A stretch of DNA of 44,497 bases from an uncultured Lactobacillus sp. GTDB lineage: Bacteria; Bacillota; Bacilli; Lactobacillales; Lactobacillaceae. Each line of letters begins with the position of its first letter. Within the stretch, counting starts at the first letter, position 1. The stretch spans positions 1 through 44,497 of the forward strand of contig CAMLHK010000008.1 in NCBI GenBank assembly GCA_946479925.1, written 5' to 3'. The notes below the pieces were generated by a model. That model saw nothing but the letters and a program-made list of their open reading frames with translations. It did not search any database and had not been told where the DNA came from. The translations under genes were made by a program, and so were the position numbers. Of the stretch, positions 628-34,193 are shown piece after piece.

Positions 628-656
628 TTGCTTTTTATTTATTATTAAGTTATGAT
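628..656 (+). promoter_or_regulatory. Sigma-A-type promoter of the aromatic leader and EIIC gene
   Basis: TTGCTT (628-633) and TATGAT (651-656) are separated by exactly 17 bases. Transcription would start near 663, about 25 bases before the leader ORF, making a leader of about 235 bases before the EIIC start codon. The assignment rests on sequence match alone. Confidence 0.7.
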
Positions 657-687
657 ATTGCTTAAATATTTATGAGAGGTAAAGATT

Positions 688-759
688 ATGACGACAATTA
701 AAAAAATTAATCAACCGCAAGTTAAATATTATTTCTGGTACTTCAGCTATTTGATCTGA
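688..759 (+). CDS. Aromatic-rich leader peptide (23 aa), putative attenuator peptide
   Basis: A short ORF with a good ribosome binding site (GAGAGG, 675-680, before ATG at 688). The first 13 residues are polar and basic. Residues 14-19 are YYFWYF, encoded by TAT TAT TTC TGG TAC TTC (727-744), then S-Y-L-I and TGA at 757-759. Seven of eight consecutive residues are Phe, Tyr or Trp. Runs of codons for one amino-acid class right before alternative hairpins are the hallmark of ribosome-mediated attenuators such as the trp and phe leaders. All three aromatic amino acids are represented here, so it may sense general aromatic shortage. The peptide itself probably has no function after synthesis. I know of no named family for it. 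Confidence 0.75.
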   Translation: MTTIKKINQPQVKYYFWYFSYLI

Positions 760-882
760 GTGCCTAGTTTGTCATTGTCTTAGACACACAGTTCAATCTT
801 CATGACAATTGTGTGTTTTAAAGATTTAAGTACTTTCTTCTCTGAAGACTCACACAGTTGTCGTCATCTGTGTGAGTTTTTT
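756..882 (+). promoter_or_regulatory. Putative ribosome-dependent transcription attenuator ahead of EIIC_2 gene
   Basis: Overlapping complementary segments are visible. Segment 0, CTGAGTG (756-762), overlaps the leader stop codon and can pair with CACACAG (785-791), with one mismatch. Segment 1 (784-793) can instead pair with segment 2 (807-816) in a 10-bp stem with one G-U. Segment 2, extended to 804-815, can pair with segment 3 (851-862) over 12 bp with one G-U, an antiterminator. Segment 3 (848-857) pairs perfectly with segment 4 (868-877) to form the terminator. Segments 1 and 3 share the identical nonamer CACACAGTT (785-793 and 851-859), which explains the switching. A ribosome stalled at 727-744 would leave segment 0 free, releasing segment 2 for antitermination. 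A ribosome at the stop codon would mask segment 0 and favour termination. The model is inferred; the pairings are read directly. Confidence 0.7.
845..882 (+). terminator. Intrinsic terminator in the leader of the EIIC gene
   Basis: A perfect 10-bp stem, ACTCACACAG (848-857) with CTGTGTGAGT (868-877), a 10-base loop, then TTTTTT. Flanking AA/TT pairs extend it. It ends 15 bases before the EIIC start codon, so it must be read through for the transporter to be expressed. Confidence 0.85.
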
Positions 883-897
883 ATTTAGGAGAGTAAA

Positions 898-1935
898 ATG
901 AATACTTTGAAAAAGATTACGCTAGATACCCTAAACGGCTTGTCAACTGGTATAGTTGTAGCTTTAATTCCCGGAGCCCTAATTAACCAGCTGGTAAAAG
1001 CTCTTTTACCAAGTATGCCGCAACTGAGTTTTATCTTAGCCTTAACTACCTTTGCTTCGGCGTTATTACCAGCAATTAGTGCAGTATGTGTCGGCATGAC
1101 TGGTAAATTGACACCTATCCAAACGTCATCTATCGCTTTAGCAGCAACAGCAGGCGCTGGCAATTTCATGATGAATAAGGGTAAAGTCACTGTAACAGGC
1201 AGTGGAGATGTCATTAACACCGCGATTACGATTATGATTGCTTACGGACTAGTATTGTTTTTTGGTAAAAAATTAAAGGCATACACGATTTTACTGGTTC
1301 CCCTTTTAGTTTTACTAATAGCAGGTGGAATTGGCTGTTTGACCCGCATACCTGTTGGTCAACTCACTAGTTTGATCGGTTTAGGAGTCCAAAAACTGAC
1401 AGACTTGCAGCCAATTATTATGGGCATGCTGATGGGAATAGTATTCGGTCTACTTATTGTTTCTCCGATTTCTTCAGTCGGTATCGCCACAGCAATCAGC
1501 ATTTCTGGTATTGCTTCTGGTTCTGCAAATCTTGGTATTACAGCTGTTTCCTTTGCATTAGCAGTTTTTGGATGGAAATCCAATAGTTTCGGGACATCAA
1601 TTGCTCACTTCTTGGGCTCTCCTAAAATGCAAATGGCTAATTTAATGACTAATCCAAAACTACTTATTCCGCTTTTAATTAATGCTGGTATCATGGGTGG
1701 TTTGGGAGCAGTCTTTCAAATTCAGGGAACACCAATGAGTGCGGGCTTTGGTTTTTCCGGCTTAATCGGACCCATAGCGGCAATGGCTAATCGGCCCGCA
1801 AATTTGTTCAATATTCTTTTAATCGCAATTCTTTTCTTCTTTTTGCCAATTGCGTTGGGCATATTGATGAACTACCTCTTTAATAGCAAAGTACATCTTT
1901 TTACAAGTAAAGACTTTGAACTAGATTTCAATTAA
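898..1935 (+). CDS. PTS EIIC_2-family membrane protein (substrate unknown)
   Basis: A 345-residue, strongly hydrophobic protein with about nine membrane segments. It resembles the PTS_EIIC_2 family, with the conserved-looking stretches VGMTGKLTPIQTSS (residues about 60-75), GSGDVINTAIT (about 100-110), SPISSVGIATAIS and GTPMSAGFGFSGLIGP in the second half. Family proteins are annotated as sugar permease subunits, but no EIIA or EIIB domain or gene lies nearby, so phosphoryl-coupled sugar transport is unproven. The start has a clear AGGAG site at 888-892. The gene stands alone between the attenuator and a terminator. The aromatic-rich leader suggests regulation by aromatic amino-acid supply, and hence perhaps transport of an aromatic amino acid or precursor; that is inference. 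Subunit type is fairly sure, substrate unknown. Confidence 0.8.
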   Translation: MNTLKKITLDTLNGLSTGIVVALIPGALINQLVKALLPSMPQLSFILALTTFASALLPAISAVCVGMTGKLTPIQTSSIALAATAGAGNFMMNKGKVTVTGSGDVINTAITIMIAYGLVLFFGKKLKAYTILLVPLLVLLIAGGIGCLTRIPVGQLTSLIGLGVQKLTDLQPIIMGMLMGIVFGLLIVSPISSVGIATAISISGIASGSANLGITAVSFALAVFGWKSNSFGTSIAHFLGSPKMQMANLMTNPKLLIPLLINAGIMGGLGAVFQIQGTPMSAGFGFSGLIGPIAAMANRPANLFNILLIAILFFFLPIALGILMNYLFNSKVHLFTSKDFELDFN

Positions 1936-2001: not shown

Positions 2002-3627
2002 TTACTTATCGCGCTTATAAACCAGCTTGCCATCAGAAAAGGTTAAGTTAACTTTGGCAAAACGAATTTCTTGCGGATCAATGTCAAATAGATTTCTATC
2101 TAATACAATGACATCGGCCAATTTACCAGGTTCCAAAGTTCCCAGTTCATTTTCGAAGGATTCAGCATATGCTGACCACTTGGTATGAGCCTGCAAAGCT
2201 TCAGTTAAAGTAATTGCATGTTCTGGGAAATAACCTCCATCTGGCTTACCTTCATTTGGTTCACAACGTGTTACAGCCGCATAAATTGTCCAAATTGGAT
2301 TTACAGAGTATACAGCTGGAAAGTCTGAACCAAAAGCCAAATGGCTTCCCGCATCAAGTATTTCACGGTATGGCCACGTGTGAGACAATCTCTCTTTACC
2401 AATACATGGCAAATATCCTCCACTCATATAGTCTCCTATACAATGTTGTGGTTGAACTGCACACATCACGTTTAGACTCTTTAATCTGGCGATATCATCT
2501 TGTCTAATCATATCAATATGTTCTAATGAATTGTGCAAAGTTAACTTGCCAATTTTACTTTTGGCATATTCATATGCATTAAGGGCCATTGTACTTGCCT
2601 GATCACCAATAGTATGTATTTTGACAGGAAAGCCTTCCTTTTGGGCCGCTAGAACATATTTGTTGAGCTCATCCTGAGTTAAAGAAGTATCACCAAATTT
2701 TCCAGGATCATTATCATACTCTTTACTCAAAAAGGCAGTATGAGCTTCAACCACGCCGTCAAGAACTTGTTTTAATCCTGCGACTCTATGCTTATTAGTA
2801 TGGTACTTTCTCTTCAGTTCTTTCGCACCAGCAATATCTGTCAAGGATGGAAATGATGTAATTCTGGTAGTTAATTCTCCAGATTGCTCTAATTCATCAA
2901 ATATTTCCGGGATATTGTCATTTGTTAGTCCTGAAGGATAGACATCAGCGACTGAGGTAATACCTAATTCACGAAAATGCTTCAAACATTTCAGCAGAGA
3001 CTGTTTCAGTGTCGGCACATTTAAAACTTCGTCCATCATGGCTTTTGTTGCTGGTGGTTCATATAAAATACCATTTAGTTCGCCCTGTTCGTCATGACCA
3101 TATATTCCACCTTGAGGATTAGGCGTATCTTTTTTAATGCCAATCTTCTCTAGAGCTATAGAATTGCACCAGACGGAGTGAAGGTCAAATGAATTTAAAC
3201 ATACTGGACGGTCTAAATTTAAAGCATCTAGTGATTCTTTTGAGGGAGTATGAGGATTATCCCAAACTTCTGAATACCAACCTGTACCATATATCCAAGG
3301 ATTATCAGGATGCGAATCAGCAAATGATTTAACCATTTGTACACATTCTTCCTCACTCTTACAGTTCATCATTTGAATGCAAAAGTCCGGATCATTTTGA
3401 ACAGAACCTAGCGAAATGTGCATATGAGAATCGTTAAAGCCAGGCATAATCAAATGATCACCACAATTAATCACAGTGGTTTTTTCATCAATATAACCAG
3501 TCATTCTATCTAACGGCACGATCTTTAAGATGCGATTTCCCTTGATTAAAACGCAACCAGATATTGGCTTATCACCAGCACCAGTAAAAATAGCTGATCC
3601 TTTTAAAACGAAATCTGCTTTTTCCAT
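2002..3627 (-). CDS. YtcJ-like amidohydrolase (amidohydrolase family 3)
   Basis: A 541-residue metal-dependent hydrolase of the amidohydrolase superfamily. The metal-binding HxH is at H68/H70 in PGFNDSHMHIS. Further family landmarks are HTIGDQAS, NSLEHIDM and AFGSDFPA near the C-terminus, followed by LEPGKLADVIVLD, the typical closing beta-sandwich segment. Length fits YtcJ-type proteins (about 530-550). No signal peptide, so cytoplasmic. The ATG has an AAAGG site upstream. It lies 14 bases behind the MFS gene and is very likely co-transcribed with it, which suggests that the transporter imports the substrate this enzyme hydrolyses. Substrates of this family are mostly unknown (N-acyl or cyclic amides); none can be named here. 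Confidence 0.85.
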   Translation of the reverse strand: MEKADFVLKGSAIFTGAGDKPISGCVLIKGNRILKIVPLDRMTGYIDEKTTVINCGDHLIMPGFNDSHMHISLGSVQNDPDFCIQMMNCKSEEECVQMVKSFADSHPDNPWIYGTGWYSEVWDNPHTPSKESLDALNLDRPVCLNSFDLHSVWCNSIALEKIGIKKDTPNPQGGIYGHDEQGELNGILYEPPATKAMMDEVLNVPTLKQSLLKCLKHFRELGITSVADVYPSGLTNDNIPEIFDELEQSGELTTRITSFPSLTDIAGAKELKRKYHTNKHRVAGLKQVLDGVVEAHTAFLSKEYDNDPGKFGDTSLTQDELNKYVLAAQKEGFPVKIHTIGDQASTMALNAYEYAKSKIGKLTLHNSLEHIDMIRQDDIARLKSLNVMCAVQPQHCIGDYMSGGYLPCIGKERLSHTWPYREILDAGSHLAFGSDFPAVYSVNPIWTIYAAVTRCEPNEGKPDGGYFPEHAITLTEALQAHTKWSAYAESFENELGTLEPGKLADVIVLDRNLFDIDPQEIRFAKVNLTFSDGKLVYKRDK

Positions 3628-3641
3628 TTTTTCTTGCCTTT

Positions 3642-4832
3642 CTATTTATTTTTTGCTTTACTACCAACTTCAGGCAACGCCAATATACATAGTATCGATA
3701 ATCCGAAAATTAACGACTCAATCCCTAGATTCTTAGCGTAGTCGTTTCCAGCAATCTTGGACACAATAATTGGAATAAAATATGATATCAGCATTGAAAC
3801 TGTACCAACTATTCCGCCAGCACTACCAGAATATTTCTCTCCTATTTCTGGAAATTGTATTGGCATAGCTTGAACTATTGGTCCACTAATTGCAGTAAAG
3901 AAGCCATTAATTACTAACATGGCCCATAAAAAGAACCCAGCTGGTGTATACCAGGTAAAGTACATTACGATCGCACCAATTAATGTCGTTACGGTCAAAA
4001 ACATCTTATAACGACCAAGCTTGTTGCACCAAGCTGGACCAATTAAAGAGCCAAAGAAACTACCGACAGTAACTACAGAAGACATAATTCCGGCTGTCGC
4101 ATTATTAATATGTTGACCTAAATTAAGCGCCTGCGGTAAAAAGCCAGCATAAGCAGTTGTTGAGGCGATTCCTAAGCCAGCACAAATTGAGACAATCCAG
4201 GTATTTTTACTTTTAATAGCAACTTTTAAATATTTCATTGTCGGTTCTGCTGGCGGCAATGATTCGCCTTTAGGAGTATCACGAACAAAAACTATCCAGC
4301 AAATAGTTAAGACTAATAATGAAACAGATGAAAACATGTAAGCAGCATTAACAGACGGAAACCATGAACTAGTGATTTGAGCCAAAGTTATTCCCAAGCA
4401 TGAAGCTGCGTAGAATACACCCATGGCAGCATCCGTATCTTGCTTAAACCAGGTACCCAAAACTTTAATTAAGTTGGCATTTAAAAGTGAAATAAAAATA
4501 CCGCATAATAAGAGCATTATCATCATCATGGCAAAATTAGATGCAATAAACCGGCCAAATGCACCTATGATGGATAAAATGCAACCCACAGATATTACCT
4601 TTTTAGAGCCAAATTTATCTCCTAAAGAACCAGCCGGAATACTGAGCACAACGGCTACGAGCATTGGGGCCATTAAAAGAGCCGAAAACTCAGCAGTCGT
4701 AATATGTAATTGAGGCATAATAACCGTGGCCAACGCTGAAACCTGAAACTGAATATAATTAGCAATAAAACACAACAAACTAACAATCGTTAGAATCACC
4801 CAGCGATAAGCAGGCAATTTTTGTTTCTCCAT
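3642..4832 (-). CDS. MFS transporter
   Basis: A 396-residue major facilitator protein with about 12 membrane segments. The loop 2-3 signature appears as PAGSLGDKFGSKKV (residues about 67-80), and a central hydrophilic loop lies around residues 190-205. It resembles the anion/NarK-CynX-like side of the superfamily rather than drug exporters, but the substrate cannot be read from sequence. The start has an AAGGAG site. First gene of a two-gene unit with the amidohydrolase, and downstream of the membrane LuxR-type regulator gene on the same strand but separated from it by a terminator. Its own promoter must lie in 4845-5036. Confidence 0.85.
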   Translation of the reverse strand: MEKQKLPAYRWVILTIVSLLCFIANYIQFQVSALATVIMPQLHITTAEFSALLMAPMLVAVVLSIPAGSLGDKFGSKKVISVGCILSIIGAFGRFIASNFAMMMIMLLLCGIFISLLNANLIKVLGTWFKQDTDAAMGVFYAASCLGITLAQITSSWFPSVNAAYMFSSVSLLVLTICWIVFVRDTPKGESLPPAEPTMKYLKVAIKSKNTWIVSICAGLGIASTTAYAGFLPQALNLGQHINNATAGIMSSVVTVGSFFGSLIGPAWCNKLGRYKMFLTVTTLIGAIVMYFTWYTPAGFFLWAMLVINGFFTAISGPIVQAMPIQFPEIGEKYSGSAGGIVGTVSMLISYFIPIIVSKIAGNDYAKNLGIESLIFGLSILCILALPEVGSKAKNK

Positions 4833-16383: not shown

Positions 16384-16411
16384 CTTTATTCTCCTACTAG
16401 TGCTTTGCCCA

Positions 16412-16500
16412 TAAAAAAACACTTAATCTGCCTGAGACTAAGCGTTTCGTAAAAGTCAATACTTAATTGAGCTTTCCTTACTAGCCTCTCGGGACTAACT
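16412..16500 (-). promoter_or_regulatory. PyrR-responsive attenuator upstream of pyrR
   Basis: The transcript contains AGTCCCGAGAGGCTA (16482-16497 region), an excellent match to the PyrR-binding loop. The terminator is a 12-bp stem with G-U pairs, AACGCTTAGTCT / AGATTAAGTGTT (16418-16446), followed by a run of T. It ends about 30 bases before the pyrR start. Confidence 0.88.
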
Positions 16501-16518
16501 TAAAAGGACATCTATTTA

Positions 16519-33961: not shown

Positions 33962-34187
33962 CAAACAAAAAAGCTTCATCCCAAAAGGGACGAAGCTTCG
34001 CGGTACCACCCTAGTTTGGACAACAAAAATGTCCACACTTTCAATTTCGCTAACGGTGAATACCGGAATGGATTAGATTCTACTAGTAAGATGAAATTCA
34101 CAGTTCCGTTTAAACTTTTCTTTCAGCTCAATAAAAAAGTTTCTCTGACTAAATGATTGCTGCTACTAGTCTTACTCTTTGTAATTA
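33962..34187 (-). promoter_or_regulatory. Phenylalanine T-box riboswitch of pheST
   Basis: The minus strand carries the T-box AGGGTGGTACCGCG (34012-33999), followed at once by the terminator AAGCTTCGTCCC-TTTT-GGGATGAAGCTT with TTTTTT (33967-33998). The specifier codon is probably TTC (34095-34093) within GTGAATTTCATC, fitting phenylalanine. Uncharged tRNA-Phe would stabilise the antiterminator by pairing its CCA end with TGGT of the T-box. It allows pheST expression only when phenylalanine is short. Confidence 0.95.
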
Positions 34188-34193
34188 GTTAAT

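Follow-up and report, generated by a model that had tools for sequence, protein, structure and literature searches.

The transporter gene near the start of the window (the whole analysed stretch of 44,497 nt, contig CAMLHK010000008.1 of an uncultured Lactobacillus sp.) is very probably preceded by a ribosome-mediated transcription attenuator of the his/trp type; we infer both its response to tRNA charging and the substrate of the carrier. Attenuation by an aromatic leader peptide had been proposed in an earlier note on this DNA, and the comparative analysis bears this out: the leader recurs in all 22 closest loci, its antiterminator and terminator show compensatory changes across the 19 leaders aligned, and a like arrangement stands before aminotransferase and DAHP synthase genes.

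Leader, alternative helices and predicted folding

The following features, all on the forward strand, were annotated:

628–656 (+): promoter, TTGCTT (628–633), 17-nt spacer and TATGAT (651–656), read from the sequence and from relatives
674–679 (+): Shine-Dalgarno sequence GAGAGG of the leader ORF, 8 nt before the ATG; GAGAGG or GAAAGG in most of the loci L001–L022
688–759 (+): leader ORF MTTIKKINQPQVKYYFWYFSYLI, 23 codons, stop codon TGA at 757–759
727–744 (+): putative regulatory codons Tyr-Tyr-Phe-Trp-Tyr-Phe (YYFWYF), from the sequence and the leader comparison
737–743 (+): strand A, inside the aromatic codons; partner 758–764
751–767 (+): strand B, over the stop codon; 758–764 with A, 751–767 with C
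780–796 (+): strand C; 780–796 with B, or 782–793 with D (807–818)
802–818 (+): strand D; partner C, or E as antiterminator (802–815 with 851–864)
844–864 (+): strand E; 5' arm of the terminator (844–857) and partner of D (851–864)
868–882 (+): strand F; 3' arm of the terminator (868–881), overlapping the T run (877–882)
887–893 (+): Shine-Dalgarno sequence AGGAGAG of the transporter gene, from the sequence and relatives
898–1935 (+): putative regulated gene, PTS_EIIC_2 (PF13303) membrane protein, Pfam score 302.5 bits

The promoter, the 23-codon ORF with its good ribosome site and the six aromatic codons, as described in the earlier note, were all recovered at these positions. TATGATA or TATCATA precedes the leader in 20 of the 22 closest loci, with CTTGC 17 nt upstream of it in 18 of the 22; a scan for consensus promoters and terminators listed neither the leader's promoter nor its terminator. 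A short ORF with a Shine-Dalgarno sequence and an aromatic codon run is thus present as in his/trp-type attenuators, its translation being predicted. Folding is much more stable than in dinucleotide shuffles: the fold of the leader (660–900) has a z-score of −4.4 and that of the terminator region (843–885) of −5.5, and in the full fold positions 887–894, over the transporter's Shine-Dalgarno sequence, pair with 832–839. As a separate observation, the leader start ATGACGACAA (688–697) and TTGTCGTCAT in the terminator loop (about 858–867) are perfectly complementary, and both were seen by eye to be absent from L011 and L019; contact between terminator loop and leader start could shut off leader translation.

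The aromatic codons themselves take part in the first helix, as GGTACTT (737–743) complements GAGTGCC (758–764) across the stop codon (A:B). Strand B can alternatively pair with strand C in a helix of 14 bp with three single mismatches (751–767 with 780–796). The pairings proposed previously are present, namely 784–793 with 807–816 (10 bp), 804–815 with 851–862 (12 bp, extendable to 14) and 848–857 with 868–877 (10 bp, with T6 at 877–882). The first switch had been drawn incompletely: the hairpin between the codons and the stop region (737–743 with 758–764) was missed, although the later pairings hold, and in the proposed pairing of CTGAGTG (756–762) with CACACAG (785–791) six of seven positions pair, whereas the middle one (A·A in the window) is unpaired in 19 of 19 aligned leaders. 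With A:B included, the anatomy as read from the sequence matches that of a six-strand, his/trp-type ribosome-mediated attenuator, in which A:B, C:D and E:F can form as a termination set and B:C and D:E as an antitermination set.

In the proposed mechanism, a leader that is not translated would form A:B and C:D, resulting in termination and an inactive gene. With enough charged aromatic tRNA, the ribosome would reach the stop codon and cover strand B, whereupon C:D and then the terminator E:F would form and the transporter would be switched off. If aromatic tRNAs were short, Phe-tRNA above all, the ribosome would halt on strand A; B would be free to take C and D free to take E, so that no terminator would arise and the transporter would be made.

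The nascent RNA was folded with the ribosome footprint masked. For the araT leader L166, with the transcript cut off ahead of strand F, this model gives the expected switch: A:B 0.83 and C:D 0.78 when untranslated, B:C 1.0 and D:E 0.98 with the ribosome stalled on the codons, and C:D 0.61 and D:E 0.38 with the ribosome at the stop codon. For the window, folded up to position 866, the model predicts A:B 0.75 and C:D 0.80 in the absence of translation; stalling on the codons shifts this to B:C 0.90 and D:E 0.97, and D:E stays at 0.96 for a ribosome at the stop codon. Up to position 840, C:D leads in the stalled state with B:C at 0.0, and at full length (window to 885) the terminator wins in every ribosome state, likewise in L166. 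The decision would therefore have to be kinetic; C:D would form first and would still have to hold once E appears.

Conservation and covariation

A homologue of EIIC_2 was found in 80 of 150 related genomes. The 22 closest loci (L001–L022, 63–100% identity) all have a leader ORF with an aromatic run, which varies as YYLRYF in L018, YYFGYF in L021 and L022, and IYFWYF in L011; in the 23rd locus (L023), an aminotransferase-like reading frame lies directly upstream in place of the leader. The nearest named genome, that of the bee-gut bacterium Lactobacillus melliventris, encodes an EIIC_2 with 99% identity and an identical leader peptide. Of 75 genomes of the genus, 23 gave a match to a covariance model of the element; in 22 the match is the EIIC_2 locus, and the remaining one (G054) is weak and lacks an aromatic leader.

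Nineteen of the 22 leaders were aligned (A1), leaving out the near-duplicates L002, L004 and L007, and alignment A2 comprised 18; the rows of the alignments are related to one another, and L001–L007 are near-identical. As a control, the partner strand was moved by 1–3 columns, which left at most 70% paired in every helix count. In A1, 85.5% of cells are paired in C:D (5 of 12 pairs changed on both sides), 95.6% in D:E (804–815 with 851–862; 6 of 12) and 96.6% in E:F (10 of 14), compared to at most 64% after sliding, and the covariation of D:E and that of E:F are each reached by 0 of 500 shuffles. As each of the three shows changes on both sides, compensatory change preserves all three helices despite their overlap and shared strands, and among them are the mutually exclusive antiterminator and terminator of a his/trp-type attenuator. 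Thin rows are found for D:E in L022 (6 contiguous bp) and for C:D in L009, L013 and L021 (5 bp). The earlier note had suggested this very search for the leader and for compensatory changes, and had counted a loss of the aromatic run or of the antiterminator in relatives against its reading; no such loss was seen in the 22 loci and the 19 aligned leaders, respectively.

For A:B in A1, 94.7% of cells are paired (28–49% when slid), one pair is changed on both sides in two sequences, and 38 of 500 shuffles reach the covariation score. B:C is paired in 73.5% (at most 43% when slid), shows no covariation in the EIIC_2 leaders and is lost in L016. It contains the previously proposed pairing 756–762:785–791, whose counterpart is well paired in leaders of araT-like genes. 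From 51 collected leaders, two groups of the latter were chosen for similar architecture, A4 (16 rows) and A5 (9 rows, another araT type); L144 was left out of A5 before alignment, and L101 in A4 ends at a contig edge, so that its gene is not seen. In A4, pairing amounts to 97.4% for A:B, 97.1% for B:C, 100% for C:D and 82.5% for D:E (at most 70% when slid), and in A5 to 94.4% for A:B, 96.3% for B:C, 96.3% for C:D, 96.8% for D:E and 92.1% for E:F (at most 57% when slid). Covariation is clear against shuffles for C:D in A4 and for A:B, D:E and E:F in A5 (at most 2 of 500), intermediate for B:C in A5 (14 of 500) and D:E in A4 (34 of 500), weak for B:C in A4 (62 of 500, the pairing percentage being reached by none) and A:B in A4 (106 of 500), and absent for C:D in A5 (255 of 500). 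The regulatory codons thus lie in the first strand of alternating helices in A1, A4 and A5, with clear covariation of A:B in A5 only. There, L142 and L143 carry the Lys codon AAG for the Trp codon TGG and, in the opposing strand B, CTT for CCA.

The codon strand was also compared with the next 45 nt in 71 leaders singly, of which 39 pass (at most 2% of mononucleotide shuffles as strong). The window does not; 9 of 200 shuffles are as strong as its A:B, which is only modestly better than shuffles, and A:B is therefore argued from the grouped comparisons and not from the window alone. Nineteen leaders were re-tested with a reach of 130 nt, and four pass (L089, L190, L197 and L213), partly across an inserted hairpin. 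In the Arg-codon leader L213 and the DAHP synthase leader L089, the codon strand has a long complement, equalled in strength by 2 of 200 shuffles in each case; L192, another leader with an Arg codon, fails (10 of 200) despite several perfect contiguous base pairs.

Shortly before the run, CAA TTG AAT (Gln-Leu-Asn) was observed in 31 distinct leaders with CAA in 31, TTG in 25 and AAT in 31, and this near-invariance spans families and target genes in many loci (e.g., L166, L174, L190 and L319–L321). A partner strand for it was not found by eye. Selection at the peptide level is unsupported because the codons themselves are nearly invariant.

Putatively regulated genes, likely signal and rival explanations

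When the genus model was applied to the family, 26 of 397 genomes matched at E up to 0.01, other genera included; besides other matches, these comprised aromatic leaders ahead of aminotransferase genes and, in one case, ahead of a DAHP synthase gene. Matches of model R1 at L073, L093, L095, L098, L099, L100 and L103 were set aside as not being aromatic EIIC_2 or araT leaders. The motif TAYTTYTGGTWYTTY matched in 285 of 397 genomes and was not used as a search tool because matches arise by chance too. Upstream of araT-like genes, 35 of 80 regions contained a short ORF in which five or more of six residues are aromatic, compared to 1 of 80 in the reverse-complement control; these regions are the first 81 listed matches minus one at a contig edge (201 family genomes; ranked by protein score, not by leader), and the sample leans to relatives of L086 because the query came from this leader-bearing locus.

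Among the named EIIC_2 loci (best 79 of 163), an aromatic leader precedes 40 of 79 (reverse-complement control, 2 of 79). In this set, the leader is found in 22 of 26 loci that have an aminotransferase gene ahead of EIIC_2, whether or not a D-2-hydroxyacid dehydrogenase gene is present too, in 18 of 28 in which EIIC_2 is alone or accompanied by other genes, in 0 of 4 in which a dehydrogenase gene lies downstream only, and in 0 of 21 with 2-oxoacid-dehydrogenase or PTA_PTB/acetokinase-type genes. The last group (e.g., L260, L265, L272 and L286) may represent a sister function, with the carrier used for branched-chain acids.

A wider scan yielded two more leaders, before the aminotransferase genes of L241 and L255; among the three other aminotransferase loci that lack a leader, L263 begins at a contig edge. 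In six bee Lactobacillus genomes, 0 of 12 aminotransferase upstream regions (12 of 19 matches checked) had an aromatic leader. At E up to 0.01, the order-level model R2 had matches in 105 of 395 genomes. Inspection of 30 loci gave 18 with an aromatic leader-like ORF and 11 without; L326, whose ORF lies inside a permease gene, was set aside. The 11 inspected loci with E above 1e-5 lack an aromatic ORF except for L326. Through this search, leaders were also found ahead of DAHP synthase and ABC_sub_bind genes from other families, and L313, from a further family, has one ahead of an araT-like gene; the ORF downstream of the L324 leader had no Pfam family match. It hence looks like the EIIC_2-type device also precedes aminotransferase(-dehydrogenase-EIIC_2) operons, DAHP synthase genes and ABC binding-protein genes in other Lactobacillales. 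Among the putatively regulated genes, DAHP synthase belongs clearly to aromatic metabolism, the aminotransferase and hydroxyacid dehydrogenase by family only, and EIIC_2 by association only. The leaders of L319 and L323, before ABC_sub_bind (PF04392) genes, are aromatic and free of Trp; TrpX of Streptococcus suis is reportedly controlled by a T-box (PMC9382623); we take it to be a member of the ABC_sub_bind family.

Further candidates were noted in passing. In one genome (G167), a Val-rich short ORF (QVVVVVSVLD, L095) and a Trp-rich one (AWWWLSAFFYTS, L103) precede, each with hairpins, two amino-acid permease genes (PF13520) and are possible further leader-peptide attenuators. In genus g61, L093 and L099 have by eye the frame MILIIIIII (with one more Ile in L099) before hairpins and an uncharacterised gene, a possible isoleucine leader. 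Elsewhere in the window, a T-box leader lies at 33983–34188 (−) and a PyrR binding site at 16411–16511 (−).

The predicted model of EIIC_2 has a pLDDT of 81. Its best Foldseek match is PtsG, itself a model (TM 0.56, E 2.4e-3), with none at E 0.001 or better, and the list is headed by three glucose-IIC entries (TM 0.47–0.56). Together, the PF13303 profile and the EIIC-like fold of the model point to a PTS EIIC permease; a search by sequence found no solved structure for it. EIIA or EIIB partners were not found among three neighbours in the window or seven neighbour proteins from other EIIC_2 loci, where aminotransferase, D-2-hydroxyacid dehydrogenase or 2-oxoacid-dehydrogenase-type genes recur. 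The target had been taken for a PTS EIIC-type transporter, to which the profile agrees, whereas its relatives sit with 2-oxo-acid/2-hydroxy-acid enzymes and without a PTS partner among the neighbours scanned. In the L. salivarius locus L270, the order is leader, aminotransferase, dehydrogenase and EIIC_2. Going by its associations, EIIC_2 probably transports aromatic amino acids or the corresponding 2-oxo/2-hydroxy acids, a role that would fit both kinds of neighbourhood. Downstream of EIIC_2, the window has an amidohydrolase gene (PF07969) and an MFS transporter gene (2002–4832, −); in most of 13 close named Lactobacillus loci, other genes are found there.

The need for such a carrier would come from an apparent inability of these bacteria to make chorismate. 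Chorismate synthase was detected in neither the host nor five relatives from its genus (0 of 6; G000 and G029 are incomplete) but in 14 of 14 control genomes, so that, as judged from these gene searches, synthesis of aromatic amino acids de novo seems impossible in the host and its relatives. This marker was used since a search for the EPSP-synthase family gave one match per genome and could not separate AroA from MurA.

The signal was assessed from distinct leader peptides that passed the filter of five or more aromatic residues in six. Of 77 such peptides, three that could not be anchored were excluded. In the core of the remaining 74, Phe is missing in 0, Tyr in 1 and Trp in 20, with mean contents of 2.9 Phe, 2.3 Tyr and 0.7 Trp. 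The mixed Tyr/Phe/Trp run emphasised previously is thus present in the window, but Trp is not a constant part of it elsewhere. As Phe is in every core and Trp is missing from 20 of 74, Phe-tRNA, together with Tyr-tRNA, would be the likeliest signal.

It is improbable that the leader acts as an arrest peptide, i.e., that binding of a free aromatic amino acid or product makes the nascent aromatic chain stall in the exit tunnel, with identical hairpins as the outcome. The recurrence of a bulky aromatic run across genera, often preceded by QLN or QPQ, would suit it, but the fourth residue of the run varies (W, F, R, G, K and others), as do the flanks, and QLN is conserved mainly as nucleotides, at the codon counts given above. 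Codon changes are moreover matched in strand B (A5; also L213), as a codon-borne hairpin requires. Less probable still is a leader that senses any slowing of translation and not aromatic tRNA in particular: such a sensor exists in ermC, according to an excerpt of PMC2965389, and the codons are mixed, but the genes downstream elsewhere encode aminotransferase, DAHP synthase and hydroxyacid dehydrogenase, and the 77 filter-selected leaders stand before such genes or EIIC_2, compared to the 1 of 80 and 2 of 79 in reverse complements.

That the hairpins answer to an RNA-binding protein, a T-box or a riboswitch ligand, with the ORF being incidental, is very unlikely. It draws on a match to bglG-cis-reg at 790–900, which at 20.5 bits against a threshold of 80 was rejected as a bglG-type element. 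Against it, none of 4227 Rfam models reaches its gathering score in the window leader (600–920), where a T-box identity was likewise dismissed for want of a covariance-model match; in the related upstream regions scanned, only tRNA genes matched (three loci), and no T-box was found in the 40 of 80 araT upstream regions scanned (4 with a leader, 36 without a filter-passing leader). The ORF and its aromatic run are, in addition, conserved jointly with the hairpins.

Known systems and biological meaning

Leader-peptide attenuation, the reading preferred here, is a textbook device of proteobacteria. The his/trp/phe-type attenuators of Proteobacteria and Actinobacteria share with the window leader a short ORF with its regulatory codons in the first hairpin strand, the alternating hairpins and the terminator; here, in contrast, the run mixes Tyr, Phe and Trp codons instead of one amino acid, the hosts are Gram-positive Lactobacillales, and the targets are a PTS-fold carrier or an aminotransferase operon.

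The his attenuator case is outlined in PMC9413887. Within Firmicutes, excerpts of PMC2965389 and PMC9413887 describe regular leader-peptide attenuation for histidine only, in Bacillus, Peptostreptococcaceae, Erysipelotrichales and one more species, and the latter assigns T-boxes to the his genes of Lactobacillales. T-box leaders of Firmicutes amino-acid genes likewise sense a shortage of charged tRNA and act by antitermination but bind the tRNA directly (PMC2494555, in part), unlike the window leader with its lack of a T-box match. The leader operons hold genes of the same general kinds as the ArAT/HdhD indole-3-lactate pathway of lactic acid bacteria, some of which have ArAT and dehydrogenase genes adjacent to each other; Ligilactobacillus salivarius has a high indole-3-lactate output (excerpts of PMC10040830). 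ArAT in the bee gut is covered by PMC9018956. The portions seen of these two papers deal with metabolites, and no mention of a leader peptide or attenuator was found in them. Among the literature matches listed, supplementary files being outside the scope, no aromatic leader-peptide attenuator was found in Lactobacillales. Hence, attenuation by leader peptide is itself already known, and the mixed-aromatic version in Lactobacillales is new as far as found in the literature and Rfam.

A broader reading is held tentatively, as a possibility somewhat short of probable: Lactobacillales may have an order-wide aromatic regulon based on one pooled-aromatic attenuator, which would control the aminotransferase-hydroxyacid dehydrogenase-EIIC_2 operon (likely a route to indole-3-lactate/phenyllactate), DAHP synthase and ABC uptake. 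EIIC_2 would then be a carrier of aromatic 2-oxo/2-hydroxy acids with a PTS fold but independent of the PTS, and production or salvage of host-active compounds would be set by the charging of aromatic tRNA.

While the Firmicutes papers found describe leader-peptide attenuation for histidine genes, the leaders reported here have mixed aromatic codons across Lactobacillales and precede aminotransferase and hydroxyacid-dehydrogenase genes of the kind that makes indole-3-lactate and related compounds. Some compounds of this type act on animal hosts, as stated in excerpts of PMC9018956 and PMC10040830. The charging of aromatic tRNA would thus be a concrete and testable signal for the switching of indole-3-lactate-type pathways, and the association provides a substrate lead for the uncharacterised EIIC_2 carriers.
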